Position numbers and translations under genes: made by a program. Below are positions 8,218-37,024 of a stretch of DNA of 45,827 bases, in pieces. Source of the stretch: a virus; IMG/VR virus record IMGVR_UViG_3300027747_001090, positions 1-45,827 of that record. One strand, 5' to 3'. A model generated the notes under the pieces. The model was not told the origin of the DNA. It made no database searches and saw nothing but the letters and a program-made list of their open reading frames with translations. Within the stretch, counting starts at the first letter, position 1; the number at the start of each line of letters is the position of its first letter.

Positions 8218-8250
8218 ACATACATGGGGAAAGCGATCACTTTCCCTGTC

Positions 8251-8279
8251 GGACAAGTCGACACGATGTCGATGTGTCC
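8251..8279 (+). repeat. 29-base inverted repeat, copy 1
   Basis: The left half-site GGACAAGTCGACA and right half-site TGTCGATGTGTCC are separated by CGA. Six inner and five outer base pairs form, with a two-base mismatch between them. It is followed by G, giving TCCG, as in most other copies. The start codon of the next gene is 40 bases downstream, after TTCTATATTGGAG. Other copies are at 9126, 10593, 11447, 15645 and 17566. Confidence 0.8.
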
Positions 8280-8318
8280 GTGGCGCTTCTGCCTACCTTC
8301 TATATTGGAGAAAAGATC

Positions 8319-8972
8319 ATGGCAAATACTGCTAACACTGCGACCTCTGCTGTCGCTTCGCCCGCTGTCTTGATGATTGGCGACCGTCCCGCTGTCGAGT
8401 TGCAGGACACAATCTTCACCATCGGTGAAGAAACCTTGGCGGCTGAGTCGCTGATGGCTCAGGGTAAGCAAGCACTAGATGTGCTCGATTCAAACCTGCA
8501 CGATATTATCAAGGGCGCTTCGTATGAGGTGTTCATGTGGGTTCGGGATCAGCACAAAGCTGGCTCTATCGACAAGGGCAAGTCTGACGATGCGGCTCAG
8601 AAAATCTGGGAGCGTCAGATCAATCGCATTGGCTCAGCGTTCGAGTTCGTCAAGCCTAAGTCCGAATCCAAAGATGCTGAGCGCAAAGCGGCGAAGCGGG
8701 CTGAGGAAATCCAAAAGCTCGCCGAGTTTGGTGATGGCGAGTTGCTCGATCTGCGTGATGCTCATCTGCGCAAGGGAGATAGCAAGTCGATTGCTCAGGC
8801 TCAGAAACTGGCGAAAGAACTTGAGCGGCGCAATTCTGTGGAATTGGATGCCGAGAAAAACCAGCGCAAGGCCACTGCTGACAAGATCATTACCCGCGTA
8901 AAAGAGTTAGCCAAAGCGGGCACGGATGATGCTGACTCTATGCTGTATCAAGTCTTGATGTTGCTTAGCTAA
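8319..8972 (+). CDS. Early hypothetical protein
   Basis: The 217-residue protein starts with ATG at 8319 behind a good GGAG site (8307-8310). The N-terminal 20 residues are Ala/Thr-rich. The middle contains EVFMWVRDQHKAGSIDKG, and residues about 105-200 are highly charged and helical (Lys/Glu/Ala-rich, coiled-coil-like). I do not recognise a family. It is the first gene of the rightward early region, with its own leader containing the 29-base inverted repeat, and is followed by a strong terminator, so it is probably expressed as a single-gene transcript. Confidence 0.78.
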   Translation: MANTANTATSAVASPAVLMIGDRPAVELQDTIFTIGEETLAAESLMAQGKQALDVLDSNLHDIIKGASYEVFMWVRDQHKAGSIDKGKSDDAAQKIWERQINRIGSAFEFVKPKSESKDAERKAAKRAEEIQKLAEFGDGELLDLRDAHLRKGDSKSIAQAQKLAKELERRNSVELDAEKNQRKATADKIITRVKELAKAGTDDADSMLYQVLMLLS

Positions 8973-10590: not shown

Positions 10591-10623
10591 GCGGACTTTT
10601 CGTCAGCCTGTCGACTTGTCCGC
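10591..10623 (+). repeat. 29-base inverted repeat, copy 3 (degenerate left arm)
   Basis: The right half-site TGTCGACTTGTCC (10609-10621) is complete. The left half (GGACTTTTCGTCA, 10593-10605) matches with several substitutions. GCGGAC and GTCCGC add a six-base outer stem. It lies in the 5' leader of the gene at 10650, followed by TTCTTTATTGGAG. Confidence 0.65.
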
Positions 10624-10649: not shown

Positions 10650-10886
10650 ATGACTACCCTCAATCATGACGAGCACAACGCTCGCCTCATCGAGCAATGC
10701 AAACCAATCGTTGAGTTGCATCTTAACCATCTCATCACCGACTACGAGTTGCTCAGCAAGCTGGCGGAGTTTGCATCTCAGGCGTTCATCCCCAACGTCA
10801 ACACCTTCGACCGCAACACGGGCTTGAAGTACACGCCCGCTATGGTCATCGAGTACATGAACAAGCGCACCAAGGAGCTGGCATGA
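10650..10886 (+). CDS. Small early hypothetical protein
   Basis: The 78-residue helical protein starts with ATG at 10650 behind GGAG (10641-10644); upstream in-frame starts lie inside the leader and lack ribosome sites. It contains HLNHLITDYELLSKLAEFAS and ends with YMNKRTKELA. No family is recognised. It is the first gene behind the strongest promoter in the window and is followed by four-base ATGA coupling to the next gene, so it should be abundant early in infection. Confidence 0.75.
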   Translation: MTTLNHDEHNARLIEQCKPIVELHLNHLITDYELLSKLAEFASQAFIPNVNTFDRNTGLKYTPAMVIEYMNKRTKELA

Positions 10887-11181: not shown

Positions 11182-11453
11182 GATACATAGCTAGAGAATA
11201 CGATGACGTTGGCGTAGCAGCCGACGACATGAATTGGCGTCACTGCACACAATGCGGTGATGACATGCACTCAGAGCGGTGGGCCTTGGGCTACCGACTC
11301 TGTTTGTTTTGCGGCGAAGAAGCCGCACAGACCGAACGCGCATCTTGGTGCGTTGTTCAGCCGTATGGCAAGGGGCCGTATATGTTGGTGACCGAGGCGT
11401 CTGCACCCCAGACACTAAAAGACACCAACCAGAAAGCCACCCGATCGGATTAA
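11178..11453 (+). CDS. Small zinc-ribbon-like protein
   Basis: The 91-residue protein starts at ATG 11178 with a four-base overlap with the previous gene. It has two Cys pairs, HCTQCGDDM (about residues 20-28) and LCLFCGEEA (about 40-48), spaced as in a zinc ribbon. The C-terminal part is unstructured. Such small zinc proteins in phages often bind host proteins or nucleic acids, but no function can be assigned. Its final codons overlap the inverted repeat at 11447. Confidence 0.65.
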   Translation: MRYIAREYDDVGVAADDMNWRHCTQCGDDMHSERWALGYRLCLFCGEEAAQTERASWCVVQPYGKGPYMLVTEASAPQTLKDTNQKATRSD

Positions 11454-11475
11454 TCGACATGGTGTCGATGACTCC
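11447..11475 (+). repeat. 29-base inverted repeat, copy 4
   Basis: The core TCGACA/TGTCGA hairpin has loop TGG, with outer GGA and TCC, and is followed by G to give TCCG. It overlaps the stop codon of the upstream gene (TAA, 11451-11453). A second hairpin, GCCCC with GGGGC around GTAT (11483-11496), and the leader CTCTTTTATTAGGA follow before the ATPase gene at 11521. Confidence 0.75.
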
Positions 11476-11520
11476 GCCAACCGCCCCGTATGGGGCAACA
11501 CTCTTTTATTAGGAAATCAA

Positions 11521-12597
11521 ATGTCAGATATCAAATTCACCCGCCGCGTCAACTTCACAGAAACGGTTGACTTGCTTCTCAACTCGGGCCACAACAGCGT
11601 TCACCTGCAAGGCGAGCCGGGCGTTGGCAAGACGGCTATTCAGGATGTACTGGTTGAACGTACAGGGTTCCGTAAAGTCTATATCGACGGGCCGAACACC
11701 GATGTGGGTCAGGCGGGCATGCCCATCCCCAACCACACCTCGCGTACGCTGGACTTCTACCCTGCCGATTACTTTGGTTTGCATCTCAACGTGCCGCAGA
11801 TCATCATGATCGACGAGTGGACCAAGACCGATGACTATGTGCGTAACACGCTACACCCGCTGTTGCACGAACGCCGCTTGGGTACATTCAACCTGCACCC
11901 AGAGACTATCGTGTTCACAACGGGCAACATGGACGGGGACGGAGTAGGCGACAGTGCGAAGGCGCACACTCGTAACAGGCAGACGTGGATGACCTACATG
12001 AAGCCCACTGCTGAAGAATGGCTGGTGTGGGCGGGCAATGCGGGCGTGGCCCCCGAGATCATGGCGTGGGTCACCGAGTATCCGCACTGTTTGGCATCGT
12101 ACATGGACGGTGGACAGAAAGAGAATCCATATATCTTCAACCCGTCGGACGCATCGCAGGTTGCGTTTGTCTCGCCTCGTTCGTTGTTCAAAGCATCGCA
12201 CTGGGTTAGCGTTCGTGATCGCATCACACAGAACTCGTTGATTGCGGCGCTCGATGGCACTGTGGGTATCTCTGCGTCTCGTGATTTGCAAGCATACATC
12301 ACGCTTGCCGATCAGCTCCCGACCCGTGACGCTATCGAGCGTGACCCCGATGGTGCTGTGGTTCCGACCAGCCCTGCGGCTCAATGTATCTTGATGTTCA
12401 AGGCCGTGACTGCTACCAAACGGGAGACGTTCGGTACATGGATGCGCTATGTCAAGCGTATGCCGAAAGAAGCACAAGCGTTGTTCATCAACAGCTTGCT
12501 TGAAGTCAAGACGCAGAAGGCATGGGCGCTTGCTCATCCTGCGTTCGTAGCGTGGGCTCGTGAGAATCAGTATATGTTTGCTGGCTTGAAAGGATAA
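11521..12597 (+). CDS. AAA+ ATPase, MoxR/CbbQ type
   Basis: The 358-residue protein has Walker A GEPGVGKT (residues 31-38), Walker B IIMIDEW (D98, E99), a sensor-1-like FTTGN stretch and downstream arginines (RNR) that could serve as fingers. This is the MoxR/CbbQ branch (AAA_5), whose members act as chaperones with a VWA-domain partner encoded next door. Here the partner follows after 4 bases. The ring would remodel a protein target selected by the VWA protein. The target is unknown; a host complex or a phage replication or virion protein are both possible. Its leader contains the 29-base inverted repeat, suggesting that the module is regulated with other early genes. Confidence 0.85.
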   Translation: MSDIKFTRRVNFTETVDLLLNSGHNSVHLQGEPGVGKTAIQDVLVERTGFRKVYIDGPNTDVGQAGMPIPNHTSRTLDFYPADYFGLHLNVPQIIMIDEWTKTDDYVRNTLHPLLHERRLGTFNLHPETIVFTTGNMDGDGVGDSAKAHTRNRQTWMTYMKPTAEEWLVWAGNAGVAPEIMAWVTEYPHCLASYMDGGQKENPYIFNPSDASQVAFVSPRSLFKASHWVSVRDRITQNSLIAALDGTVGISASRDLQAYITLADQLPTRDAIERDPDGAVVPTSPAAQCILMFKAVTATKRETFGTWMRYVKRMPKEAQALFINSLLEVKTQKAWALAHPAFVAWARENQYMFAGLKG

Positions 12598-12601
12598 CAA
12601 A

Positions 12602-13870
12602 ATGATTAAGAAACTAACCGCTGAACAGCGCATAGAGTTGGTACACGTTAGCCTCATGCGCTCGTCTGAGTTCGCGTTGTTCGCGGGCTTGTTCATGGTG
12701 GGCAAGACGAGCGTGGTCGACCTGCCGATCACTGCCCGCACCAACGGGCGTGACGCACAGTACGGGCGCGAGTTCGTGAATGGGTTGAGTGACAAGGAGC
12801 TTGCCTTTCTTGTGCTGCATGAGAATATGCACAAGGCATACCGCCACCTAACAACGTGGAAATCGTTGCATGACATCGACCATAACTGTGCAAATCATGC
12901 GTGTGACTACGTCATCAACATTCAGCTCGTCGACCTCGACCCGAACGAGAAGCTGATCGCCATACCCCGTTTAGACGGTAAGGTGATGGGCTTGCTCGAC
13001 CCTGCGTATCGTGGGATGGATACACGCCAAGTGTTTGATATCCTGCGCAAGAAGAAGAAAGAAAAGGGCGGCGAAGAAGGTGAGGAAGGTGAAGACGGCG
13101 GCGACGAAGGTGGAGTCGGCGGCAAAGGGAAAGATCGTCAAGATGGCGATAAGTCCGGGCATGGCGGGTTTGACGAGCATGACTGGAAGGAAGCAGTTGA
13201 TGGCATGACCGAGGAGGAGAAGCGAGAACTTGCTGACGACATCGACCAAGCCCTGCGGCAAGGCGGTATCTATGCGGGCAAGGTCGGTGGCAAGATGAGC
13301 CGCGAGATGGCAGAGATGCTGACACCCAAGGTCAACTGGCGTGAGGTGTTGCGTAGGTTCATCAAGACCAGCCTGAAAGATCGTGATTCTCCGTCATGGC
13401 GCAAGGCTCACAAGAACTACCTGTGGCAAGACATCATCCTGCCGTCGATCATGGGCAAGCGCATCAAGCACTTGGCTGTGGGTCTCGATACATCGGGTTC
13501 CATACAAGGGCCGATCTTGGATGCGTTCCTGTCGGAGTTGAACAAGATCATCAAAGACGTGAATCCAGATCGCGTCGATGTGATGTATTGGGATACTGAA
13601 GTAGCAGGTCATGAGACCTATACGGGCGCGAAGGGTGACATCGTGAAACGCACCAACCCTGTGGGTGGTGGCGGCACTGACCCCGACTGCGTACCTGTGT
13701 TCATGAAAGAGAACGGCATAGCCCCTGATGCGCTTGTCATTCTCTCGGATGGGCATATGCACAGTGAACCGGCGAACTGGGTCGGGGGTAAGTATCCGGT
13801 GCTGTGGTGCATCATCGGCAACGATAGCTACACGCCACCCCGTGGCCAGCTTGTCAATGTGAAGGAGTAA
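12602..13870 (+). CDS. HExxH/VWA protein, DUF2201-like partner of the AAA+ ATPase
   Basis: The 422-residue protein has two parts. The N-terminal half contains LHENMHKAYRHL with HExxH at H73-E74-H77 and a following ACDYVIN stretch, the pattern of DUF2201 putative metallopeptidases. After a Gly/Glu/Asp-rich linker (about residues 155-195) comes a VWA-like domain with a complete MIDAS: DTSGS (D296, S298, S300), T359 in GGGGTD and D383 in LSDGH. It pairs with the AAA+ gene 4 bases upstream, as MoxR-VWA systems do. The VWA domain would bind metal and a protein ligand. Whether the HExxH site cleaves anything is unproven in this family. Confidence 0.85.
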   Translation: MIKKLTAEQRIELVHVSLMRSSEFALFAGLFMVGKTSVVDLPITARTNGRDAQYGREFVNGLSDKELAFLVLHENMHKAYRHLTTWKSLHDIDHNCANHACDYVINIQLVDLDPNEKLIAIPRLDGKVMGLLDPAYRGMDTRQVFDILRKKKKEKGGEEGEEGEDGGDEGGVGGKGKDRQDGDKSGHGGFDEHDWKEAVDGMTEEEKRELADDIDQALRQGGIYAGKVGGKMSREMAEMLTPKVNWREVLRRFIKTSLKDRDSPSWRKAHKNYLWQDIILPSIMGKRIKHLAVGLDTSGSIQGPILDAFLSELNKIIKDVNPDRVDVMYWDTEVAGHETYTGAKGDIVKRTNPVGGGGTDPDCVPVFMKENGIAPDALVILSDGHMHSEPANWVGGKYPVLWCIIGNDSYTPPRGQLVNVKE

Positions 13871-13872
13871 GT

Positions 13873-14043
13873 ATGAAAACGTACGAAGTAGAACTGCAAC
13901 GCACGAGCTACATCACCGTCACGGTGGAGGCTGAGAGCGAGGACGAAGCTGAGAAGAAAGCGTGGCAGCACATCGAGCACAACTGCGTCAACATCAGTGA
14001 CTCAGATTGGAATTGCGAATCAATCGAGGAGATATTCACATGA
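13873..14043 (+). CDS. Small acidic hypothetical protein, DpnD/PcfM-like
   Basis: The 56-residue gene follows the VWA gene by 2 bases with a good AAGGAG site. The product begins MKTYEVELQRTSYITVTVEA, then ESEDEAEKKAWQHIEHN. This strand-strand-helix pattern, with a V-x-A-x-x-x-x-x-A motif, resembles the DpnD/PcfM-like small proteins. No function is assigned. The next gene overlaps its stop by four bases. Confidence 0.68.
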   Translation: MKTYEVELQRTSYITVTVEAESEDEAEKKAWQHIEHNCVNISDSDWNCESIEEIFT

Positions 14044-14288
14044 ACTACGAAGACGAAGTTATTCTGAACGTGGAGAGCGGGCGGTACGTGCTCTCGATGG
14101 ACGAGGCAATGCGTGTGGCTGAGATACTAGGCGCGGCTGTGACCGTCGGCACTGAGTGGCGCAAGGGTACGTCTGACTTTGTGGTCTACCGCAAGGTGAA
14201 CCCAATGTCGGCATCGATCACTCCGTTTCACGGCGCACTGCGTATGGAAGTGGAATCAAACATGCGTGAGAAAGAGAAGAACCCATGA
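14040..14288 (+). CDS. Small hypothetical protein
   Basis: The 82-residue protein begins MNYEDEVILNVESGRYVLSM. The start at 14040 overlaps the previous stop (ATGA), and the end overlaps the following gene in the same way. It has an amphipathic helix (MDEAMRVAEILGAAV), a short beta region and a charged C-terminus. No family is recognised. The run of coupled genes after the VWA protein suggests one transcript. Confidence 0.68.
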   Translation: MNYEDEVILNVESGRYVLSMDEAMRVAEILGAAVTVGTEWRKGTSDFVVYRKVNPMSASITPFHGALRMEVESNMREKEKNP

Positions 14289-14458
14289 AAGAAAGCCTGT
14301 ACGCAATCAACCTGAACCGCGAGACGTTCGACCTGTTACAGGACGTGCGCGGGGAGTTGACTGCATCGCTTGGGTTTAAACCCACGAACGGTCAGGTGAT
14401 TCGTCACTTGATCGCCTTGTACTTCAACGAAACGGAATGGCCGACAGCTTGTCGGTAA
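14285..14458 (+). CDS. Small hypothetical protein, possible DNA-binding fold
   Basis: The 57-residue protein begins MKESLYAINLNRETFDLLQD and continues with a helical region. A short N-terminal strand followed by two helices is compatible with a ribbon-helix-helix fold, but the match is not diagnostic. The last codons form the hairpin CCGACA GCT TGTCGG (14441-14455), reminiscent of the core of the dispersed inverted repeat. Confidence 0.6.
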   Translation: MKESLYAINLNRETFDLLQDVRGELTASLGFKPTNGQVIRHLIALYFNETEWPTACR

Positions 14459-14474
14459 ATCCAAGGAGAACACT

Positions 14475-14654
14475 ATGCCTTTATTGGTTAAGGAACGTGG
14501 ACGAGTTGTCCATGTGAAAGAAGAGCATCCAAAGATTGGGAGTAGATCAGGAGAGAACCTGACGTTACAGCAGTTCAAGAGACTGCATTACTTGGGCACG
14601 CTGTCAGAAGGCATGTCTATTATTCAACGCGCTTTATTGAAACGAGGAAACTGA
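14475..14654 (+). CDS. Small basic hypothetical protein
   Basis: The 59-residue protein begins MPLLVKERGRVVHVKEEHPK and ends in a helix. It is basic and starts behind AAGGAG (14462-14467). The gene lies one base before the start of the next. No family is recognised. Confidence 0.6.
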   Translation: MPLLVKERGRVVHVKEEHPKIGSRSGENLTLQQFKRLHYLGTLSEGMSIIQRALLKRGN

Positions 14655-14655
14655 A

Positions 14656-15669
14656 ATGGGATACAACACAGCATGCGTGCGAAGACTGCACGACTTTGCA
14701 CAGGCAAAGAAATGGTACACGGGCACGCCCCCTATCCGTGGCAACCCGAACAACATTCGGCCCTTGGGTAGCCGCCGTCATCACTATATGGCGAGCATGG
14801 CCATGCCCGACGACGACACCGTCGACTTGTGCTTCTTTAGCAAGCCGTTCGTGCGGTGGCACGCAGACGACACGTTTGAGGTCTTTTGCCCAACTTACTA
14901 CTCTGCGTTCACGCCAGACAACATCACGCCGTTCCTGCCTAACACTATGCGTATGAAGTGGGTAAAGACTCGCTTGTTCTTGATGTACGGGGACAAGGGT
15001 TACTTGATGCAGCCGGGGGATGTGTTCAAGTTCTCCAAGGTGGGCGACAAGTATTTCTTTCTCAACAAGCCTGTTGCGTATGCGTTCCGTAAACGCAGGG
15101 GCGTGCTCGACAAAGTGATGAAGAAGTACGAGCCGTTCCGTGATTGGCTAACGATCGTGACTGCAATCACCAACGAGATACCGCATGACGAGCGCCATTA
15201 CATTGAAGAAATGTTCAGCGGCGTAGCGGGCGTGGCTACATACAAGCAGGTCGAGGAGGAACGTGACAAGCGTAGTAAGAATAACGAGCCGTATTCTTAC
15301 GCACTGAGCGAGTTAATCAATCGGTTGTGGAGAGCACCGTACAGTAACTACCGCTGTGCGGGGTTCTGCACTGACCACTGCGCTGTGCTGGACAAGTGGG
15401 TGACGAGCGACAACGCCGAGGATTGGGTGAGCGCCATGAAAGTTATCGCCTTACGCTACGGGCAGTATATGTACAGGCAGGAGGTTTACAAACTCAAGTT
15501 TGCCGAGGCCGACCGTGTACTGCAAGAGATCGCATCACACCTGCACCGTGACAAGGTGTTTGAGATTGTGCGTCTACCCGATGGCAAGATACCGAGCCGC
15601 ACAAACGCCAAGTACTTCAACAGCTACAAGCTGCCAACCTTCGAGGAATTATCGACATTCGGTCGATAA
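14656..15669 (+). CDS. Conserved early protein of unknown function
   Basis: The 337-residue soluble protein begins MGYNTACVRRLHDFAQAKKW behind an AGGAA site. It is rich in aromatic and basic residues and has no recognisable enzymatic motif, signal peptide or membrane segment. A predicted mixed alpha/beta N-terminal half with repeated Tyr/Phe/Lys is followed by a helical C-terminal half. It lies in the operon after the ATPase/VWA pair and may belong to that module. Its stop codon lies inside the inverted repeat at 15645. Confidence 0.78.
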   Translation: MGYNTACVRRLHDFAQAKKWYTGTPPIRGNPNNIRPLGSRRHHYMASMAMPDDDTVDLCFFSKPFVRWHADDTFEVFCPTYYSAFTPDNITPFLPNTMRMKWVKTRLFLMYGDKGYLMQPGDVFKFSKVGDKYFFLNKPVAYAFRKRRGVLDKVMKKYEPFRDWLTIVTAITNEIPHDERHYIEEMFSGVAGVATYKQVEEERDKRSKNNEPYSYALSELINRLWRAPYSNYRCAGFCTDHCAVLDKWVTSDNAEDWVSAMKVIALRYGQYMYRQEVYKLKFAEADRVLQEIASHLHRDKVFEIVRLPDGKIPSRTNAKYFNSYKLPTFEELSTFGR

Positions 15670-15673
15670 GTCC
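15645..15673 (+). repeat. 29-base inverted repeat, copy 5
   Basis: Arms TATCGAC and GTCGATA surround ATTCG, with outer GGA and TCC, and are followed by G. The repeat contains the TAA stop codon (15667-15669) of the upstream gene and is in the leader of the gene at 15707. Confidence 0.72.
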
Positions 15674-15706
15674 GTTAATTAACTTTCAAACTTTCAAGAG
15701 GATATC

Positions 15707-16615
15707 ATGATGCTAGAGAATACGACTACGGTCACCAACCCCGGCGCTAACGCAAACGTACTTCCCATGTCATTGTCATCAATGGCAATGCTGGTCGAGT
15801 TGCGTATCAGTACGTGGACTGCGCGTAAGCGTGACAACGAAACCACAATGGAGATCAATACTTCCAAGGAAGCCGACCAAGACTCGGGCTCGGTGTACAA
15901 GTACCTAATGGCGGGCAGTGACCATCTCAAGAAGATAGAGAAGTATGCGGCCAAGTGTCGTGCGTGGAACGGTACGCAGACCCTGCCTTGGATGAAGGGC
16001 ATTGGCTTACTGCCGATGGAGAACTTTTTCAAGTATCGGGAACAACTTGCAACGATGGAGGCCAACTACTTTGCGTTGGTCAGTGACTTCATTGCCGCCT
16101 ACCCGCAACTCAAGAACGATCAGGCGTTCAAGCTAGGCAAGTGGTACAAGGCCGACGAGTTTCCTGATGTAGAGACGTTGCCCCGTAGGTTCAAGTTCGA
16201 GTACAACTTCCTGCCTGTGCCAGAGAGTGGTGACTTCCGCATCAACTGCGAGGCCCGCATCAAGGCTGACTTGCAAGAACAGTACGAGAAGATGTTCAGC
16301 GACAAGTTAGCGGAGGCGATGCGTGACCCGTGGGACAGGTTGCACACCATGCTCAATCGCATGGCTGAGCGACTGACTGACAACGAGGACGGTGATCGTA
16401 AGATTTTCCGTGACTCGATCATCGACAACGCCGTAGAGCTTTGCGACTTGCTGACTCGGTTGAATGTGACGAAAGACCCTGAGCTGGAGAAAGCGAGACG
16501 TATGCTTGAGCAGGCGGTGACAAGCACTGACATCAAAGACTTGCGGGCGATGCCGAGTGCGCGGCTTGAGCTGAAGACTGATGTGCAAAATATTCTCAAC
16601 AAATTTCAATGGTGA
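15707..16615 (+). CDS. Hypothetical protein, possibly DUF3150-like
   Basis: The 302-residue protein starts at one of two adjacent ATG codons (15707 or 15710) after AAGAGGAT. It is mainly helical and charged. The central region has KGIGLLPMENFFKYREQLAT, then ANYFALVSDFIAAYPQ, which recalls DUF3150, a family often encoded beside MoxR-type ATPases and VWA proteins. That resemblance is from memory and not tested. If right, it completes a three-component module with the genes at 11521 and 12602. No catalytic motif is visible. Confidence 0.65.
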   Translation: MMLENTTTVTNPGANANVLPMSLSSMAMLVELRISTWTARKRDNETTMEINTSKEADQDSGSVYKYLMAGSDHLKKIEKYAAKCRAWNGTQTLPWMKGIGLLPMENFFKYREQLATMEANYFALVSDFIAAYPQLKNDQAFKLGKWYKADEFPDVETLPRRFKFEYNFLPVPESGDFRINCEARIKADLQEQYEKMFSDKLAEAMRDPWDRLHTMLNRMAERLTDNEDGDRKIFRDSIIDNAVELCDLLTRLNVTKDPELEKARRMLEQAVTSTDIKDLRAMPSARLELKTDVQNILNKFQW

Positions 16616-16619
16616 CAAC

Positions 16620-17525
16620 ATGGCAAACTTTGCAAACATACAACTTCATACAGGGTTCGTTGTCGACCCGTTCCTCTCGGAGCTGGTGGATAAGATCGCC
16701 CTGCGTAATCCAACCTACACGATCGGTACCAAAGGCATAGACGAACAAATGCGCGAGCGGTTGTCGAGCGTTCGCCCTCGCGGGCGTGGCAATTTCAACG
16801 AACGTGTGGACGGGCTGCGTTATATCTACAAACTCAACGTGCACTGCGGCTCGGAGCTTCTCGGCTCCATATCCGTCGACGTGCGGTACGTGCGTACCAG
16901 TGGGTCTGAGCTTGTGTACTGTATCAACTCATGGCGCATCAACAATGAGCGCGGCAGTCAGAACGTGACGAAGACCGCCAAACTGGATGTGGCCGTACGC
17001 ACAGCCAAGCGTGTATTCGTTCCACAGAATATGAATGAGTTGATGGAACAGACTGAAAACACAGTGAGCAACTCAATGAGGGATACACTGATGGACTTGC
17101 GTAGGCCCATAGCGTCGGGCCATTTGGTGGGCAGGACTATTGACTTGCATCACTATCTGTACTTACATCTCAACAACATGGAGATACCACCCGAATTGAA
17201 GCGAGATGTAGAGCCAACATTTACTTCGGCCAAATATCACAATGCAATGTCGGAGTATCGGCTTGCCAACCACATGGCTAACATGCCGTATAGATATTAC
17301 CGCGCACACAACGGAGGTTACATACATTGGCGGCAGGATACGCAAGACAGCGGGACTGCTGTGTCGCAAGACAACAGGACTGCTGTGTTCAGCGCGTTTG
17401 AGGAGCTATCTGAACAAACACAGAATCACATATCTGTGCTCCAGCTTATGCAAGACAACGAGCTTGTGCTCGACGTAGGTTACAGATACAACGGAGACTG
17501 CTTCGCTGTTGTAGACCATACTTAA
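16620..17525 (+). CDS. Early hypothetical protein
   Basis: The 301-residue protein starts with ATG at 16620, 4 bases after the previous stop; a longer in-frame reading from 16581 would overlap the upstream gene by 35 bases. It begins MANFANIQLHTGFVVDPFLS and contains basic central segments. The C-terminal third holds DSGTAVSQDNRTAV, a short imperfect repeat of [DS]xxTAVxxDNxTAV type. No domain is recognised. It is the last gene before a strong terminator, so the operon beginning at 11521 ends here. Confidence 0.76.
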   Translation: MANFANIQLHTGFVVDPFLSELVDKIALRNPTYTIGTKGIDEQMRERLSSVRPRGRGNFNERVDGLRYIYKLNVHCGSELLGSISVDVRYVRTSGSELVYCINSWRINNERGSQNVTKTAKLDVAVRTAKRVFVPQNMNELMEQTENTVSNSMRDTLMDLRRPIASGHLVGRTIDLHHYLYLHLNNMEIPPELKRDVEPTFTSAKYHNAMSEYRLANHMANMPYRYYRAHNGGYIHWRQDTQDSGTAVSQDNRTAVFSAFEELSEQTQNHISVLQLMQDNELVLDVGYRYNGDCFAVVDHT

Positions 17526-17561: not shown

Positions 17562-17565
17562 GTCT

Positions 17566-17594
17566 GGACACATCGACAAGTTGTCGACGAATCC
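17566..17594 (+). repeat. 29-base inverted repeat, copy 6
   Basis: GGACACATCGACA and TGTCGACGAATCC surround AGT. The left half-site is identical to that at 9126. It follows a terminator, as the 9126 copy does, and precedes a promoter at 17642. Confidence 0.78.
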
Positions 17595-17641
17595 GCAACC
17601 CTATTAGTGTTTCCACCTACAAAATATTTTTTAAAAAAGCC

Positions 17642-17676: not shown

Positions 17677-18042
17677 ATGGCACAAACACCAGAAAAGAAA
17701 GTCAAGGACAAGGTAACGGCGTTACTCAAGCAGTACGGCGCTTACTACTTCTACCCACCGAGCAACGGCTTTGGCCGTGCTGGTATCCCAGATATCGTAG
17801 GCTGTCTGCACGGTCACTTCATAGCGATTGAGTGCAAGGCGGGCGGTAACAAACCCACGGCATTGCAACTGCGGGAACTTCAAAGTATATACCTTGCGGG
17901 CGCGACTGCGTTGCTCATCCGCGAGAGCAACATACATGAAGTAGAACAACATCTCCAATACATCAAGGAACAACACCATGCTGACCAAGCTACTGCGCTG
18001 GCCCATCCCCGATCAAATCAAAGCTTTGTTAGAGAAGATTGA
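17677..18042 (+). CDS. VRR-NUC domain nuclease
   Basis: The 121-residue protein is a stand-alone VRR-NUC nuclease of the PD-(D/E)XK superfamily. Visible catalytic elements are GIPDIVG (D39), IECKAG (E52, K54) and Q64 in TALQLRELQ. Phage members of this type are Holliday-junction or structure-specific nucleases that work with SNF2 helicases in recombination and repair; one is encoded at 23631. Its conserved N-terminus begins at the first codon, so the ATG at 17677 is needed. That places the start codon at or next to the transcription start. The last 65 bases overlap the next gene. Confidence 0.88.
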   Translation: MAQTPEKKVKDKVTALLKQYGAYYFYPPSNGFGRAGIPDIVGCLHGHFIAIECKAGGNKPTALQLRELQSIYLAGATALLIRESNIHEVEQHLQYIKEQHHADQATALAHPRSNQSFVRED

Positions 18043-26569: not shown

Positions 26570-26625
26570 GGGGGTGACTAGCTCGACGGAGCGAAAGGGG
26601 ATTCCGTCTGCCCCTCGTCACCCCC
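26570..26625 (+). ncRNA. Structured leader with pseudoknot potential
   Basis: An outer stem pairs GGGGGTGAC (26570-26578) with GTCACCCCC (26617-26625). Inside it GACGGA (26585-26590) pairs with TCCGTC (26603-26608). The loop AGGGG (26596-26600) can pair with CCCCT (26611-26615) beyond that stem, giving an H-type pseudoknot. It ends 27 bases before the primase start. Confidence 0.6.
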
Positions 26626-26652
26626 TCCTTTGTGATGGATTTAGGATTCAAA

Positions 26653-29727: not shown

Positions 29728-29760
29728 ACCCCGCTAGGGTAACTTAGCGGGGTTTTTTTT
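29728..29760 (+). terminator. Rho-independent terminator between converging units
   Basis: ACCCCGCTA and TAGCGGGGT pair around eight bases and are followed by eight T residues. A weaker hairpin with GTGC and GTTGCAC arms precedes it near 29685-29704. The T-run runs into the stop codon of the minus-strand gene. On the minus strand the T-run is poor, so it mainly stops rightward transcription. Confidence 0.88.
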
Positions 29761-32700
29761 ACGAGTTATCGTCCAGCACACCGCGCAGACGTTTGTCGAT
29801 GTACAACCCGTTTTCAGTTTGCGCAGACTTGGTCATACGCTCCTTAATGGATTTCGTCAAAGTACCCGCTGGGATGGCCACGCTTGGGTGCTTGATGTTG
29901 AACTTGTCGATGCGGTCGTAAGCTGTTTCCAGCGTATCCGAATCGTTTGCCATGAATGCAATCCCGTAAAGGTTCAGCAGGTTCTGGCGTTCCTTCAAGA
30001 TCGCTTGCTCTTGGCCCTTGATCGTGATGTTCTTGTATTGCAATTCAGCCACTTCGGCTGGCCGCAAACCAATAGATTGCATCAGCAAAGCAAACGAGCC
30101 CACATCCTCAACCAGCGGATCACCACGCAAAGTGTTTACGCCCTCGTTGGCATAGCGGGCAGCGACCAATGGGTTCTTGATGAACGCCGGGGCGATCATC
30201 TCTATTGCGCGGTCAGTATGGCCAGTATTAAACAACTTCATCGCCTCGGCTGCGTTAATAGCTAAACCAACTGTTGGGCCTAATTGTTCAACTAAGAACG
30301 ACTGTAAAGCTTCAACTTCATCTTGGTTCTTGCGGCTATCGCGGTACCACATGTCATCGAGCTTTGTACGGCTGGCCAAATCCACGCCCGCCATGTTACC
30401 CACACCGCGTGTAAGCAACGTACCGGCGTTCTGACCAAACGTATCAGCAGCCCACTTGGTGAACTCCAACTCAAAGTCAAACACTTCTTCGTCGTCTTCA
30501 TCCTTCAGGCCGTTGACCAGTGCGTTGGCAATCATTGCAACTGTGGAGAAACCCCACAATCCGGTCACGCCAGAGAAGATACCAGCCATACCCATTGTGC
30601 CAACAAACCGCGCCCGTGCTTCGCGGCGGTCTTCAGGAGACATGCCCTTCCACATGTTGATCGCGTTGTGGGTCAGGAAGAACGTCATCTGCTGCGGGAA
30701 CTGCTTGAATTGCAACACCACACGAGCGACTGGGTTCTGAAAATAACGCGGCTTGTTTGCCGACGAGTAGTCAAACATCGACCGCTGCGTAGAGTCTTTT
30801 GCAACCGCAATAGATTCATCAAACGCAAGGGCTTGGTCTTTGTAATCTTTGCGCTGCGCCATAGCCGCACGGAACGCAGACATCGCCATCACTTCACGGT
30901 TGAACCGTTCAGCGTTGTGGAATAACGCCGACAGCAATTCAATACTCCTGTGGTACTTGCCACCGTAAGCATCCGTGGGAGTAGAGGCCAGACCAGACTG
31001 ATCGTACGCAGCGGTAATGTCAATCACGCCGTCTGCTACAAATCGGTTGTAAGCGGCTTTGTCAATGCCGCTCAGTTCTGAAGAACGGCTCAACGATGGG
31101 AAGTCAACGCGGTTGTCACGGAGGCGTTTACCCCGTTCGACGGAGAAGCCCGTGGCAATGATCTGGCCAGCAACTTGTTTCATGTGCCAAAGAGCGTTTA
31201 CCGTTGCCTGTGCGTAAGACATCTTTGGGTTGGCTTTTACTTCTTGCCCAACCAAAGTAGGCAAGCCAATAATCATGCCGCCTAATACGTTGACGATTGC
31301 CGATGCGGGCGCGGTCAGGTACCATACAAACCCCACGTTGGACAGAAACGATGGTATTGTTCCGACGTCTGTTGGGTTGAGCATCAGACCCAAACGCCGT
31401 TCCATTTCTTTTACGTAATCGCTCAGCTCGTTGTTCTCGCGGGACAACTCAACATTACGAGCAGCCCCAGCTTCACTACGATCTTTGATCTGCAATCGAG
31501 CCGCTTCAATGTTAGAGAATAAATCGGGCGCGTGCTCAAACCGGGCCAGTTGGTAGGCCATGTGAAATGACGAAGCAGCAAAGTTACGCAGGGCGTCTTC
31601 TGAGTAACCAGCCACGTTGTTGCGGTGCATGAATTGGCTTCGGAAGCTGTGCTCTGGCTGGTTGGACAAGAAGCTTTGGTACAAGCTGTCCTTCAACTCT
31701 TGCTTTTGCGCGGCGGCGGTTGGACCCGTAAAGTTGGTGCTATCAATTGCCTCAAACGCACTCTTCAAAAAGTTTGATTGCTGGGCGTGTAAGTCCATCT
31801 GCTGCGCGTATTCGGAACCTTCCTTGATAGAATCTTCCAAGGATGGGTCTTGCGCAAGGCGCTCAGCCATGTGCATTTCTTTTTGGCCCGCTGTCTCAAA
31901 CATGTAGTACTCGCGGTTTTTGCCAGTGCCAACCTGATACCAGAATCGCCCGTGGCGCATCAGTGGGAAGTACGGCCCTTTGCGTTTGTTCTTTTCAAAC
32001 TCGTTGCGAATTTCAGTAGTTGTTGCTTCCGACACACCAAGCTGTCGCATCTGGATAATGCGTCGATTCATGACCTGCTTGTACTCAGAATAGCGGCGAT
32101 CGTAGAAGTCACGAGCCTTACGGTAGATTTCTTTTGACTGCGGCGTGAGTGCATACCAGTCCTGCATCAACTGCACGTTGGCGTTACGCTGATTGGGCGT
32201 TGCCACATCTGGGTCTACTTCCGCGATGGTGGCAGCGTGCATAACTTTGGCCAACGCCCGAGACTCCTCGGGGTTAGACGATTGCATGCGTTCCCATGTC
32301 TTGAGAATATCGCTCGACTCTTTCAAGATACCGTTCTTGCGGGACAGGAATTCTTCGGTTACGCGAATGAAGTTGTTTACCTGCGGAATACGGTTACGCA
32401 CCAGATCGCCGATCTGACGCAAAGTCAGGAAACCCAACAAAACAGGACGCAAACTAGCCTTGGCGCTGTTGTATGCAATCGGGAACGTAGTTTTAACTTC
32501 ACTCCAACTTTTTGGGTGTATTAACTTACCTATAGCTGTAGGAGTGTTCTGCAAACCGGGCGGGGTGGGTCTGGCCATCGCCGCCGACATGGCCTTGGGG
32601 CCAGTGGTTTCAGTTGCTACATCAAACGAGATTGGGCCGCTCATCATGATGTCGGTGGCGTTCATCACCTCAACCATAACGTTGCTCTCAGCATCTGACG

Positions 32701-35700
32701 ACACGCCAAACAACTTCTTAATAGCGCTTGTGAACTCGTTCCAAACAGAGATTGGAGCGGCCTTGTAACGAATGGCGCGGAGCAATGCTTGCAACTCAGG
32801 GTTGGTCATTGCTTCCGAGACAAACTCGTGCAGGTCTTGGATGTTGTTGATGTTCATCCCGTCGCGTGACAGGATGCCTTTGGAATAGTTGTACAACTCA
32901 TTCAGGCGGTTGTACGCATCAAGCCGCGCACCCTGCAAGGACTTGGGGTTGTCAATCAGGCGAGATGTGGCAGCGTGCAGTACTTCGTGCAGGAACAAGT
33001 GATTGGTCAGGTAGCCCTGACGCATTGTGATCTTGTTGGTGCGAGGGTCGTACTTGCCCAGCCAGCCGTATTCTTTGTTCAGGAGCGCGATGGTCTCGCT
33101 GAGAATCTGCCGCTGCGACAGGTTCTCAATGTTGTCCTCCAACTCAGCGATGGCTTCTTTCAAGTCATACAAGTTGTTGGACTTCAACCCTTTGATGATC
33201 GGCTTTTGCTTGTCCTCGGGGAACCCTGCAAGCACCATGTCAGTCAACGCACTCAGTTGTGCGTCAAGCGTTTCTTTGACGGCGGGATCGTTTGACAACG
33301 ACACCATCTCATTTTTGCCGACAATTTCAGTCTTGGCGTCAACGTCCGACTCCAGCAGGCGTTTAGCAAGTGCGGAGTAATATGCGTTCTTGGGTGCTGC
33401 GGCCAAAATCTTTAACGCACCTTTGGTGTCGCCCTTGTCAAGCAAGCGCATGATGTCAGGGTGTTGCAACTCCGTGAGCTTCTGCACGGTCGGTAAGTTT
33501 TTACCAACTCGTTGCTCTTCTGTAAGCTGTTTAACGGGCGGCGCTTTGGGGATTTTTACACCCGTGGCTTTTTCAACTTTTTGGCGCTGCTCTTCAGCGT
33601 ACTTGTCTAAAGACGCTTGGTACTTAGTAATAGCCGCATCAAACTTTTCTTCTTCTCGCAAATTGTTGCGGTAGTCCTCAGTCATGTTGTTGAGCACATC
33701 AACAGTATCTTGGTTTAGATTCTGCTCAATCCACTCTTTAAACTGGACAGCGTACTTGCCGCCTTCGTTTACGTAGATTGCATTGGCCCGGCCAACACCG
33801 GCTTCGTGCATTGCAATGTCGTATGCCAGCGCAGACAGCACATCCCCAAAGTTCTTGCGGTTGGGGTTTGTGATGTAGCTACGTGCAGCGGCCATGCCTT
33901 CGGTGACGCTACCCCGTGCATCAATCGCGCTCTTCAAGAAGTTCCAAGCTGAGCGCAGCTTGTTGTCGGAGATTACGTACCGCTTAGACTCGTTACTTGT
34001 CATTGGCCTGCGGGCTTTGCCTTCAGGCGATGGTGCACGCTCAACTGTTTTACGGGTGACAGTTGTGGCTTCGCTTACATACGGCAGCTTACCAAACGGA
34101 ATCTTTACGCCGCCCGCTTCGGTGAAAGTATCTGTTTGGAACGATTTCAACTCATCGTTGAACTGCTCCATACCGCGACGGGTCGTGAGGTCTGGGAGCC
34201 CTGCGTTCTCAAGGATGTTGCTCTGTGATCGACTGCCGGGCTTGCGCAAGTCTTCGATCAGTTGCGACAGCGCAGCTTGGCCACCCACACGGCGGGCCAA
34301 GTATTTGAGCGCCTTCTGCATACCGGGCGTTGTTGTTTCACCGGGTTTAGCAATGTCGTATTCAGTGGTCAAAAGATCACGGCCCGTTTGCTTCAGGGCG
34401 TCGTGCTTTGTCTTTTCGCTAGGTGTGTTTGCAGCAGGCTGGATCGCATCAAAGAACGCGCCTATCGTGGCCGCTTCTTCAGTACCGGCAACGTGCTCAG
34501 TGCTTTCTTTTGGTGCTTCTTGCTTTTCGTTAACCTTGTCCCGCAAAGCCTGACGTTCGGCCTCAAGCGCCGTCTCTTCTTCTGTCAGTTCGGTTTCGTT
34601 GGGCAGTGCTTCAAAGTACGTATCGAGCTCATTTGGCTCGGTGCGTCGAATAGGTTGCGTGGGTTGTTTGGTCGTTTGCGTTTCTAATAGCTTGCGTTGT
34701 GGGGACGGCACTGGCAGTTCCCCAAACAAACCTGTTTGTTCTGGCGCTAATTTTTCTTTTGTTGCAGCGGGCTGTACGGTTTGTTTACCAGATGCAATAT
34801 CTGCTTTAACCGTTTCAATTTCCCGCTGTATTGCACTTAAAGTTTGCCCATAACTTGTTATTGCGTCTTTGGCTTTTTTGGCTTTAGCCTGTTCCAAATT
34901 ACGGGAAGTCTCAGCTTCTCTGGCAACCAAAATATTTAAACGTTCTTCGGACGTCAACGACGCGCCGCCCGTAACACCCACATTACGTTTTTCACTTTCA
35001 GCCGACCGTTTTTGTCGGTCTTGGTATGCCTCAAATGCTGCTTGGTTTTCTAACTCCAAAGCTTGACCCGCGCTACCGGTGTTGCCCGTTTTGGCAAACA
35101 CGTCCTCAAGGTTTTCTGCTGGTGGCCCTTCTTCCAAGGGCTTGTTAAACATATCCCCCTGCATCGCCTTGGGCTGGCCTTTGCGGCGTTCAACTTCCGC
35201 AATGGCTGCGTCAATCTCAGCCGTTAATTTTTGAACGTATTGTGCAGCAACGGCTTCAGGGTTTTTAACTCCTTCGGGCCGGGTCATGTTAAACATTTCC
35301 GCACGCTTACTAGCCCAAACACCGTTGTCTTTATTTTCTTCAGCGGTGGCTAATACTCGCTGGCGATAGTCCTCAAGCAACTGCACTGCCGCATCGGGGT
35401 CACCGCCAGCTTTTGCGAGGGCAAGTTGTGCAGCACGGTACGGCGCTTTTTCCCCACCAAACAAGTTGCCTTGCATGGCTTTGGGTTGGCCAGTGGTTTG
35501 TTCTTGATCCGCTAGCGCCCCGATTAAATTGGAACCGTCATAGATTGGGTTCTTCAAGTTTTTAACCAGCTCGGCATCTCCGATCAGAGCAGCGTGCTCA
35601 TCAATCGTGCGATTAAAGTCTCGCAGTGCGGCTTTGAGTTGGCCAGTCTTCTCAGGGGTCTGCACGCCCCCGCCCAACATTGGGAGAATCTCTGCCCGCA

Positions 35701-37024
35701 GCTCGTTGTACTGGCGCTGGAAATCGGTCAGTGAACCGGGCTGCGCTCCTGCTCCACCATCAGTGCTTGTAACATTCTGTCCAGCAGGAACCACTCCATC
35801 TGCCCGAGGTTCTCCAGCTCCTGTGGTGGTGGCTCTTGTATCGGACTTGCCAACCACGCCAGCGCCTGCTCCACTTGGTGGAGTGACAGATTGGTCAACA
35901 TTTTGCTCTCCTTCAAGGTCTCTCTTGATCCAGTCAGGTACATTGGTAGTCGTATCCACGACTTCAGTTGGTGCATTACGTTTGCCCCCTACGATACCAG
36001 TTATTCCCCCCATACCGCCCGCGCCAACCGTGGCCATAGCCGCAGTTTCGCCTGTGCCAGCCATCAAGTCACGATTCATGCCAGCCTGACGGGCAGCAAT
36101 GTTCTGTGCGATCTTGCCACCGACTTCTTCAATGTTCTCGCCGGGAATTTCTTTCAGTGCGCCAGTTAAGCCACCAACGATGCGACCAGCGCCCGTGCGT
36201 TCACCAGCCAACACTCGCTCCAGTGCTCCAGCGCCGGGCAAGTATTTGTTGGCCAAAAGAGACAGACCGTATCCGGTCAAACCAGCAGCGCGGGCAAGGT
36301 TAATAGTTTCCGAAGCAGCCGCCTCGGGCGACATTTTCTTTTCTTCGGTGAGGTACTTGTAAACCTCATCGTACGTACCAGCGCCGATGTCTGCACCTTG
36401 CTGAACCGCGCCCGTTTGGATGGCGGCGTTTGCGCCTGATTTGATGGCGGCTTTTTGCGCTACTTTTTCAGCGGCTTCTTTAGAGATGTTTCGCGCAGCA
36501 GCTTTGGCCAGCACGTTGCCGGATGTAAGCGCGGCTGTACCTCCGCCCGTGATAATGGCAGGGATCAGTTGGGGCGCTTGTTCAGCAAGGAACGAGAAGA
36601 ACAGCGCAGGATCAGAAACAGTCTGGCCAACAGCGGTTTTGAAAGCGTTCCACTGGCCTGTCTTTTCTGCTTCTTGTACGGCTTTAGAACGCATCTCTTC
36701 TCGCTCTTTCAGCCCTCTGGACTTCATCTCTTCGCCATATTTTTCAATGGCTTCGCCCATACCTAACGTACCGGTCTTGGAGAAGTTGCCCGTAGCCAAC
36801 CCATAAAGCTGGCCGGGAACCTGCACAAGCGAGCCAAGGCCGGACACCGCGCCCGCCCCAATGTCCTTGACAGACTCGCCCCAAGTGCGTTCGGTTGGCG
36901 CTGGCGCAGGCGCGGCTTTTTGGCTACCCATGTGGGTTGAGTACGCCCACTGCCACGCTGTATTCTCATCTGGCGCATCGACTTCGTACTTTGCGCCTTG
37001 AACGTCTACAGCGAACTTAGCCAT
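29759..37024 (-). CDS. Giant internal virion/ejection protein with HExxH motif
   Basis: This 2421-residue protein is the largest gene in the window. It begins MAKFAVDVQGAKYEVDAPDE then NTAWQWAYSTHM, a short N-terminal domain seen on several large phage proteins. Ala/Gly-rich, potentially membrane-active segments occur near residues 150-185. A Gln/Ala/Glu-rich central third is probably extended or coiled. HEVLH (H1346, E1347, H1350) is a zinc metallopeptidase signature. Hydrophobic stretches occur near 1895-1925 and 2145-2175, in a C-terminal region resembling the large polyvalent or PLxRFG-type proteins. It is probably injected with the DNA and may open a channel or process host proteins. Confidence 0.78.
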   Translation of the reverse strand: MAKFAVDVQGAKYEVDAPDENTAWQWAYSTHMGSQKAAPAPAPTERTWGESVKDIGAGAVSGLGSLVQVPGQLYGLATGNFSKTGTLGMGEAIEKYGEEMKSRGLKEREEMRSKAVQEAEKTGQWNAFKTAVGQTVSDPALFFSFLAEQAPQLIPAIITGGGTAALTSGNVLAKAAARNISKEAAEKVAQKAAIKSGANAAIQTGAVQQGADIGAGTYDEVYKYLTEEKKMSPEAAASETINLARAAGLTGYGLSLLANKYLPGAGALERVLAGERTGAGRIVGGLTGALKEIPGENIEEVGGKIAQNIAARQAGMNRDLMAGTGETAAMATVGAGGMGGITGIVGGKRNAPTEVVDTTTNVPDWIKRDLEGEQNVDQSVTPPSGAGAGVVGKSDTRATTTGAGEPRADGVVPAGQNVTSTDGGAGAQPGSLTDFQRQYNELRAEILPMLGGGVQTPEKTGQLKAALRDFNRTIDEHAALIGDAELVKNLKNPIYDGSNLIGALADQEQTTGQPKAMQGNLFGGEKAPYRAAQLALAKAGGDPDAAVQLLEDYRQRVLATAEENKDNGVWASKRAEMFNMTRPEGVKNPEAVAAQYVQKLTAEIDAAIAEVERRKGQPKAMQGDMFNKPLEEGPPAENLEDVFAKTGNTGSAGQALELENQAAFEAYQDRQKRSAESEKRNVGVTGGASLTSEERLNILVAREAETSRNLEQAKAKKAKDAITSYGQTLSAIQREIETVKADIASGKQTVQPAATKEKLAPEQTGLFGELPVPSPQRKLLETQTTKQPTQPIRRTEPNELDTYFEALPNETELTEEETALEAERQALRDKVNEKQEAPKESTEHVAGTEEAATIGAFFDAIQPAANTPSEKTKHDALKQTGRDLLTTEYDIAKPGETTTPGMQKALKYLARRVGGQAALSQLIEDLRKPGSRSQSNILENAGLPDLTTRRGMEQFNDELKSFQTDTFTEAGGVKIPFGKLPYVSEATTVTRKTVERAPSPEGKARRPMTSNESKRYVISDNKLRSAWNFLKSAIDARGSVTEGMAAARSYITNPNRKNFGDVLSALAYDIAMHEAGVGRANAIYVNEGGKYAVQFKEWIEQNLNQDTVDVLNNMTEDYRNNLREEEKFDAAITKYQASLDKYAEEQRQKVEKATGVKIPKAPPVKQLTEEQRVGKNLPTVQKLTELQHPDIMRLLDKGDTKGALKILAAAPKNAYYSALAKRLLESDVDAKTEIVGKNEMVSLSNDPAVKETLDAQLSALTDMVLAGFPEDKQKPIIKGLKSNNLYDLKEAIAELEDNIENLSQRQILSETIALLNKEYGWLGKYDPRTNKITMRQGYLTNHLFLHEVLHAATSRLIDNPKSLQGARLDAYNRLNELYNYSKGILSRDGMNINNIQDLHEFVSEAMTNPELQALLRAIRYKAAPISVWNEFTSAIKKLFGVSSDAESNVMVEVMNATDIMMSGPISFDVATETTGPKAMSAAMARPTPPGLQNTPTAIGKLIHPKSWSEVKTTFPIAYNSAKASLRPVLLGFLTLRQIGDLVRNRIPQVNNFIRVTEEFLSRKNGILKESSDILKTWERMQSSNPEESRALAKVMHAATIAEVDPDVATPNQRNANVQLMQDWYALTPQSKEIYRKARDFYDRRYSEYKQVMNRRIIQMRQLGVSEATTTEIRNEFEKNKRKGPYFPLMRHGRFWYQVGTGKNREYYMFETAGQKEMHMAERLAQDPSLEDSIKEGSEYAQQMDLHAQQSNFLKSAFEAIDSTNFTGPTAAAQKQELKDSLYQSFLSNQPEHSFRSQFMHRNNVAGYSEDALRNFAASSFHMAYQLARFEHAPDLFSNIEAARLQIKDRSEAGAARNVELSRENNELSDYVKEMERRLGLMLNPTDVGTIPSFLSNVGFVWYLTAPASAIVNVLGGMIIGLPTLVGQEVKANPKMSYAQATVNALWHMKQVAGQIIATGFSVERGKRLRDNRVDFPSLSRSSELSGIDKAAYNRFVADGVIDITAAYDQSGLASTPTDAYGGKYHRSIELLSALFHNAERFNREVMAMSAFRAAMAQRKDYKDQALAFDESIAVAKDSTQRSMFDYSSANKPRYFQNPVARVVLQFKQFPQQMTFFLTHNAINMWKGMSPEDRREARARFVGTMGMAGIFSGVTGLWGFSTVAMIANALVNGLKDEDDEEVFDFELEFTKWAADTFGQNAGTLLTRGVGNMAGVDLASRTKLDDMWYRDSRKNQDEVEALQSFLVEQLGPTVGLAINAAEAMKLFNTGHTDRAIEMIAPAFIKNPLVAARYANEGVNTLRGDPLVEDVGSFALLMQSIGLRPAEVAELQYKNITIKGQEQAILKERQNLLNLYGIAFMANDSDTLETAYDRIDKFNIKHPSVAIPAGTLTKSIKERMTKSAQTENGLYIDKRLRGVLDDNS

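Follow-up and report, generated by a model that had tools for sequence, protein, structure and literature searches.

The AAA+ ATPases of the MoxR class form rings, and the metal ion-dependent adhesion site (MIDAS) of their von Willebrand factor A (VWA) partners grips the client protein. The pairs RavA/ViaA, NorQ/NorD, CbbQ/CbbO and CobS/CobT have known enzyme clients, and none of them is known to carry a protein of the DUF3150 family. The present analysis concerns a virus record of 45.8 kb (IMGVR_UViG_3300027747_001090, positions 1 to 45,827; hereafter the window) which, like these four systems, encodes an AAA+ ATPase with a VWA partner, and which also encodes a DUF3150 protein.

In phages, the closest described systems are N4 gp24 (AAA+ ATPase) and gp25 (vWFA), which are core genes of the N4-like phages, Schitoviridae (PMC4193335, PMC7650795), and are expressed as middle genes (PMC4193335). 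The group 2.2 jumbo phages contain a MoxR AAA+ protein and a vWA protein with an N-terminal metallopeptidase (PMC7824862). On plasmids, the cluster ORF101-103 of pCAR1 was described in 2009 and reported as conserved in R478, Rts1, SXT and R391; the ATPase and the VWA protein were named, the middle gene was given no role and the link to transfer was made by inference only (PMC2642839). The MoxR-vWA-centric ternary conflict systems associate the pair with third components such as VMAP, iSTAND, FtsH and others (PMC7159879). The pair of gp24/gp25 type and the plasmid cluster of pCAR1 are already known. The new elements are the recurrence of a third component across phages and plasmids, the several AAA+ contexts of DUF3150 and a shared regulatory palindrome.

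The three genes of the window are the following:
11521..12597, plus strand: AAA+ ATPase of 358 amino acids (AAA_5; N4 gp24 type, PHROG 1297), from Pfam, PHROG and motifs
12602..13870, plus strand: protein of 422 amino acids with a DUF2201_N metallopeptidase-like domain and a DUF2201 VWA domain (N4 gp25 type, PHROG 1314), from Pfam, PHROG and motifs
15707..16615, plus strand: DUF3150 protein of 302 amino acids (PF11348), candidate third component

From sequence comparison, we estimate at about 60% the probability that they represent a form of the MoxR-class AAA+/VWA chaperone carried by mobile elements, in which DUF3150 would be an accessory third subunit. A three-part machine is likely on this basis, more so than any single target.

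The ATPase matches AAA_5 with an E-value of 4e-6, which passes the cut-off, and PHROG 1297 ("ATPase") with 7.5e-41. It displays a Walker A motif (GEPGVGKT) and a Walker B motif (IIMIDE). The alignment of its relatives reveals that G36, K37, the sensor-1 residue N136 and R220 are invariant and that D98 and R153 are conserved in more than 90% of sequences. Midasin, CbbQ and NorQ are among the nearest solved structures detected by profile comparison. The preliminary description of this locus had called the ATPase "MoxR-type". An AAA+ ATPase with a VWA partner is indeed present, whereas the MoxR core model AAA_3 (PF07726) gave no match, although divergent proteins may escape this model (it matches the homologue from IncC at only 0.024). 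The CbbQ_C domain (PF08406), found in the IncC ATPase, was undetected in the window ATPase at E-values up to 1. The VWA protein matches DUF2201_N (9.5e-28), the VWA-like DUF2201 (1.3e-16) and PHROG 1314 (4e-80). Its zincin motif HExxHx4H is intact (H73-E74-x-x-H77, with H82 and D102 conserved too) and its MIDAS is complete (D296-x-S298-x-S300, T359 and D383). The HExxH and MIDAS residues are nearly invariant among 38 diverse aligned relatives and, among 172 homologues, HExxH is retained in 165 and DxSxS in 170, so that both sites look selected for. The profile neighbours of this protein are VWA/MIDAS proteins, the 60-kDa subunit of Mg-chelatase, the minigluzincin MJ1213 and M48 peptidases (weak). 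The label "HNH endonuclease", frequent for DUF2201 and DUF3150 proteins in phage records, is apparently erroneous, the domain content of DUF2201 giving it no backing. The Pfam and PHROG matches and the motif alignments bear out the adjacent ATPase and DUF2201-like protein noticed at the outset, and the assignment of 11521-13870 to an AAA+/VWA chaperone pair is supported at the sequence level.

The gene downstream, described at first as a possible DUF3150, is genuine: it matches PF11348 with an E-value of 1.2e-6 and 28.4 bits, above the curated cut-off of 24.9. Since this model was too narrow for the plasmid forms of DUF3150, we built and used our own profiles. The AlphaFold2 model of the protein (mean predicted local distance difference test, pLDDT, 82.9; predicted template modelling score, pTM, 0.69) consists chiefly of long helices; a small region at the N-terminus contains strands. 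Compared with the PDB, it gave nothing better than an E-value of 0.5, and VIA-align Z-scores up to 9.6 corresponded only to common helical bundles; the BFVD matches are other DUF3150-like phage proteins. As the PDB matches are poor and the helical bundles generic, no function is claimed from the fold. The predicted helical structure is consistent with an adaptor role, without a fold match for a specific one. No paper naming DUF3150 was found in the literature searched, and the linkage to AAA+ and VWA genes supplies a context for this family.

Among the window-type loci with 3 kb available downstream of the VWA gene, DUF3150 is present in 57 of 59. Conversely, the ATPase and the VWA protein are both present in all DUF3150 loci of window type with 5.5 kb upstream (23/23); the real DUF3150 and this constant company differ from what the preliminary description had named as contrary evidence, namely unrelated downstream proteins carried by relatives without the ATPase. 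The gene order is ATPase-VWA-DUF3150 in the window. In the cyanophages MinM2 and Pag-Yong1 the ATPase is followed by DUF3150, three small genes and the VWA gene. In Pag-Yong1 (L110), a gene annotated as the anti-CRISPR AcrVA2 (13051-14091) lies two genes past the VWA gene. The order ATPase-DUF3150-VWA was observed in plasmids of Burkholderia, Cupriavidus, Caballeronia, Variovorax, Rhodovastum and Simplicispira. When 84,980 genomes were scanned with the plasmid DUF3150 sequences, 79 loci were recovered, and the three genes occur together in 49 of the 59 having both flanks. They are also together in pCAR1 (IncP-7), in the order ATPase-DUF3150-VWA, and in the IncC plasmid pAR060302, where the order is AAA-ssb-bet-exo-DUF3150-VWA, with a CobS/CbbQ-like ATPase and a CobT-like VWA protein. 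At least three gene orders are therefore distributed across phages, plasmids and islands.

Among 369 genomes sampled evenly from a single class, seven contained DUF3150, the centre genome of the sample included; the VWA gene is a neighbour in 7/7 and an AAA+ gene in 6/7. Four of the six newly read loci carry an exonuclease gene and ssb and/or bet. The bacterial loci L203, L204, L205 and L206 show exonuclease, ssb/bet and AAA+/DUF3150/VWA genes in one cluster that resembles IncC. In the phylogenetic trees of the ATPase and of the VWA protein, the DUF3150-bearing pairs are not monophyletic: a single clade was rejected by the approximately unbiased (AU) test with p-values of 2e-54 and 4e-13, respectively, several long branches being present. 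This distribution indicates repeated gain or loss of DUF3150. Pag-Yong1 and a Rhodovastum plasmid (L116) group together in the trees of the ATPase, the VWA protein and DUF3150, as expected if the three genes move jointly. The suggestion that DUF3150 is a third component is thus strongly supported by a synteny that recurs across independent elements.

N4 gp24 and gp25 belong to the same PHROG families (1297 and 1314) as the window pair, have the same order, precede the replication genes, and gp25 has the same DUF2201_N and DUF2201 domains; however, N4 has no DUF3150 and its proteins are only 18% and 25% identical to those of the window. The jumbo-phage MoxR-vWA-metallopeptidase pair has the architecture of the window pair, but no third component was described and PA5oct and phage G are without DUF3150. 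The pCAR1 and pAR060302 clusters share AAA+, DUF3150 and VWA with the window and differ by a CbbQ/CobS-type ATPase and by a CobT-like VWA protein in place of DUF2201. The clusters of Burkholderiales plasmids and islands include all three families with a VWA protein of DUF2201 type as in the window, whereas the gene order and the neighbours (PRTRC genes and VirB11/VirB2 genes of the type IV secretion system, T4SS) are different and the 337- and 301-aa genes of the window, listed below, are absent. The ternary conflict systems also add a third component to a chaperone pair, but these proteins differ from DUF3150; no match of VMAP, iSTAND, FtsH or beta-propeller type appeared in the PADLOC and Pfam scans, which did not target each of these components individually.

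In the proposed mechanism, the ATPase would assemble into a ring on which the VWA protein would dock, holding a substrate through its MIDAS; the zincin domain could possibly clip the held substrate, and DUF3150 might bridge to the substrate or select it. Less firmly, this substrate may belong to the DNA recombination/replication or DNA-transfer machinery of the element, or be a host protein acting on it. Such a target is suggested only by the neighbours, which are recombination and replication genes in the window and in the IncC-type sets, and T4SS genes in many of the Burkholderiales sets; plasmid triads are frequently located beside T4SS genes (T2SSE match in 13/80 neighbours).

Several observations weigh against this scheme. 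The synteny among the window-type phages is that of a single lineage, and the independent cases consequently weigh more. DUF2201 pairs usually lack DUF3150, as they do in N4, phage G, PA5oct, CRP-7, At2 and a Rhizobium phage; of the 369 sampled genomes, 112 contain DUF2201_N, almost always without an adjoining DUF3150. Among the relatives of the window pair, L098, L099 and L100 are devoid of DUF3150, the contigs of the last two being possibly incomplete. The T4SS genes beside the plasmid triads point to transfer rather than to recombination. Finally, DUF3150 is also found beside another AAA+ protein without VWA, and hence is not tied to VWA. Hidden DUF3150 proteins in the N4-like and L099/L100 loci were undetected by profile or by hhalign, with positive controls that worked; in L099 and L100, an unrelated open reading frame (ORF) of 327-384 amino acids sits between the ATPase and VWA genes. 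Because most DUF2201 pairs, including that of N4, exist without it, DUF3150 is, as far as gene content tells, an accessory of some mobile-element versions and not an obligate subunit.

The DUF3150 tree comprises a VWA-associated clade and a second clade from Planctomycetes, Deltaproteobacteria, Bacteroidota, a Manganitrophus plasmid and the phage Tunturi_3, in which DUF3150 comes after another type of AAA+ protein and is mostly accompanied by DUF1257 and DUF2997. In this second context (L119, L182-L199, L112) the AAA+ protein is classical, VWA is absent and RadC or a DUF6094 methyltransferase is sometimes near. The two clades and their contexts indicate that DUF3150 accompanies AAA+ motors of three kinds. 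We propose only tentatively that DUF3150 is a portable adaptor of mobile-element AAA+ motors, which would direct them to the recombination/replication or DNA-transfer machinery and would have become part of three or more AAA+ systems (DUF2201-type pairs, CobS/CobT-type pairs and the AAA-DUF1257-DUF2997 set). If so, phages and conjugative plasmids would share an undescribed protein-remodelling machine. N4 gp24 and gp25 have been core genes without an assigned function since the first comparisons of N4-like phages, and the recurrent third component offers a handle on them; N4 and pCAR1 are tractable laboratory systems for this question.

The recurrence on phages and conjugative plasmids narrows the possible jobs to their shared needs, that is the handling of incoming or replicating DNA, and argues against virion assembly as the sole explanation. 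For the jumbo-phage MoxR-vWA protein with an N-terminal metallopeptidase, a role as a chaperone folding or clipping the structural proteins has been proposed from the analogous case of the Acidianus two-tailed virus (PMC7824862). According to its annotation, the ATPase of PA5oct was seen by electrospray ionisation tandem mass spectrometry (ESI-MS/MS), and in roseophage RPP1 the gp24/gp25 homologues have a structural gene module in their vicinity (PMC4193335). We nevertheless regard such a role as unlikely: in the window, the genes belong to the replication block of the plus strand and are distant from the structural genes of the minus strand; moreover N4 gp24/25 are middle genes, and plasmids and islands, which produce no virion, commonly carry the triad. 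Middle expression in N4 would also suit a machine of host take-over or counter-defence that remodels or cleaves a host complex, as would the intact zincin domain and the presence on phages and conjugative elements, both of which enter a cell. This explanation has a similarly low probability, as N4-like phages infecting many hosts conserve the pair as core genes, which suggests that the target is general and not specific to one host; there was also no PADLOC match, though the PADLOC library does not test counter-defence.

That DUF3150 is a mere neighbour, belonging to the replication module and inherited next to the pair without sharing its function, would agree with the many syntenic genes of the window-type phages and with the majority of DUF2201 pairs that do without it. 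It is rendered quite improbable by a linkage that recurs in unrelated elements, with different gene orders and in all seven sampled genomes, and by the placement of DUF3150 with another AAA+ protein. The least probable role, to which we give very little credence, is metal insertion or enzyme maturation in the manner of NorQ/NorD, CbbQ/CbbO or CobS/CobT. The ATPase has distant profile matches to NorQ and CbbQ, and the IncC members resemble CobS and CobT. Yet no metalloenzyme or chelatase gene was recognised among the scanned window genes and CbbQ_C was not detected in the ATPase, which leaves the metal-insertion analogy of the preliminary description unsupported. The neighbours (ssb/bet/exo, PolA and nucleases, with T4SS on plasmids) favour instead DNA recombination/replication or transfer.

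The ATPase gene is preceded by an interrupted palindrome of about 31 bp, composed of a 6-bp core stem (TCGACA nnn TGTCGA), 3-nt spacers and outer arms of 3-4 bp. This leader had been attributed to the ATPase/VWA pair alone; it is real, but it is one of six plus-strand copies located before various window genes (8 core matches against 1.9 expected). The palindrome scan gave:
about 11446..11476: leader before the ATPase gene (CGGATTAATCGACATGGTGTCGATGACTCCG)
15644..15674: leader before the DUF3150 gene
17565..17595: leader before the VRR/Hjc-type nuclease gene (17677-18042)
8250..8280: leader before the gene 8319-8972
10592..10622: leader before the gene 10650-10886
about 14433..14463: weaker copy (CCGACAGCTTGTCGG, core at 14441-14455) before the 59-aa ORF at 14475

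In the related phages (L001-L102), the leader precedes many middle genes, and its architecture and positions are kept while the stem is swapped wholesale (TCGACA, CCGACA, CCAACA, GTGTCA, GCGACA and others), each phage having a single version throughout. Of the three leaders of the ATPase, DUF3150 and nuclease genes, two or more have an identical stem in 40/60 loci, versus 229/1172 random cross-phage pairings. This pattern, expected for a site read by a phage-encoded regulator, suggests a coevolution with a trans-acting regulator. Since their leaders carry the same phage-specific palindrome, the ATPase and DUF3150 genes likely share one regulon with several other genes. A DNA operator seems the simpler reading than an RNA element, because G-T pairs are not favoured at the best paired outer-arm positions 9 and 10, where none occurs, and the spacing is nearly fixed. 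A hairpin promoter of N4 type was considered; no virion RNA polymerase was recognised.

The other genes of the locus are:
13873..14654, plus strand: four small ORFs (56, 93, 57 and 59 amino acids) of variable conservation
14656..15669, plus strand: 337-aa protein of no family, with an AlphaFold2 model, adjoining the module in two positions
16581..17525, plus strand: 314-aa ORF (301 amino acids if the start is ATG 16620) of no family, after DUF3150, in the window phage group only
17677..18042, plus strand: VRR/Hjc-type nuclease gene preceded by a copy of the leader

The 337-aa and 301/314-aa proteins matched no family in profile searches. The 337-aa gene is upstream of the ATPase gene in 50 loci and after the VWA gene in 35, its position differing between phage clades; its AlphaFold2 model (pLDDT 94.5) has a best PDB Z-score of 4.1 and otherwise resembles uncharacterised phage proteins only. 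The idea that the intervening and following genes are part of the same system holds in part: the 337-aa protein accompanies the module across the phage group, in which it may be a fourth part, though as a weaker candidate than DUF3150 is for the third, whereas the small ORFs vary and the 301-aa protein is restricted to the group. Antisense ORFs overlapping the ATPase gene (e.g. 11851-12876, minus strand) were judged spurious.

The ATPase, VWA and DUF3150 genes are situated at the start of the plus-strand block of the window, which also encodes DNA polymerase A, a PD-(D/E)XK nuclease, an SNF2-type helicase and a DUF927 primase/helicase-like protein. They are apart from the minus-strand block of packaging and structural genes (terminase, portal and large virion proteins). 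Between the replication genes and the primase-like gene, an int-alpA RNA (Rfam RF02996) was detected at 26571-26638 on the plus strand with 45.2 bits. The minus-strand gene at 29759-37024 encodes a protein of 2421 amino acids with a large polyvalent protein associated domain (LPD39, 3e-23).

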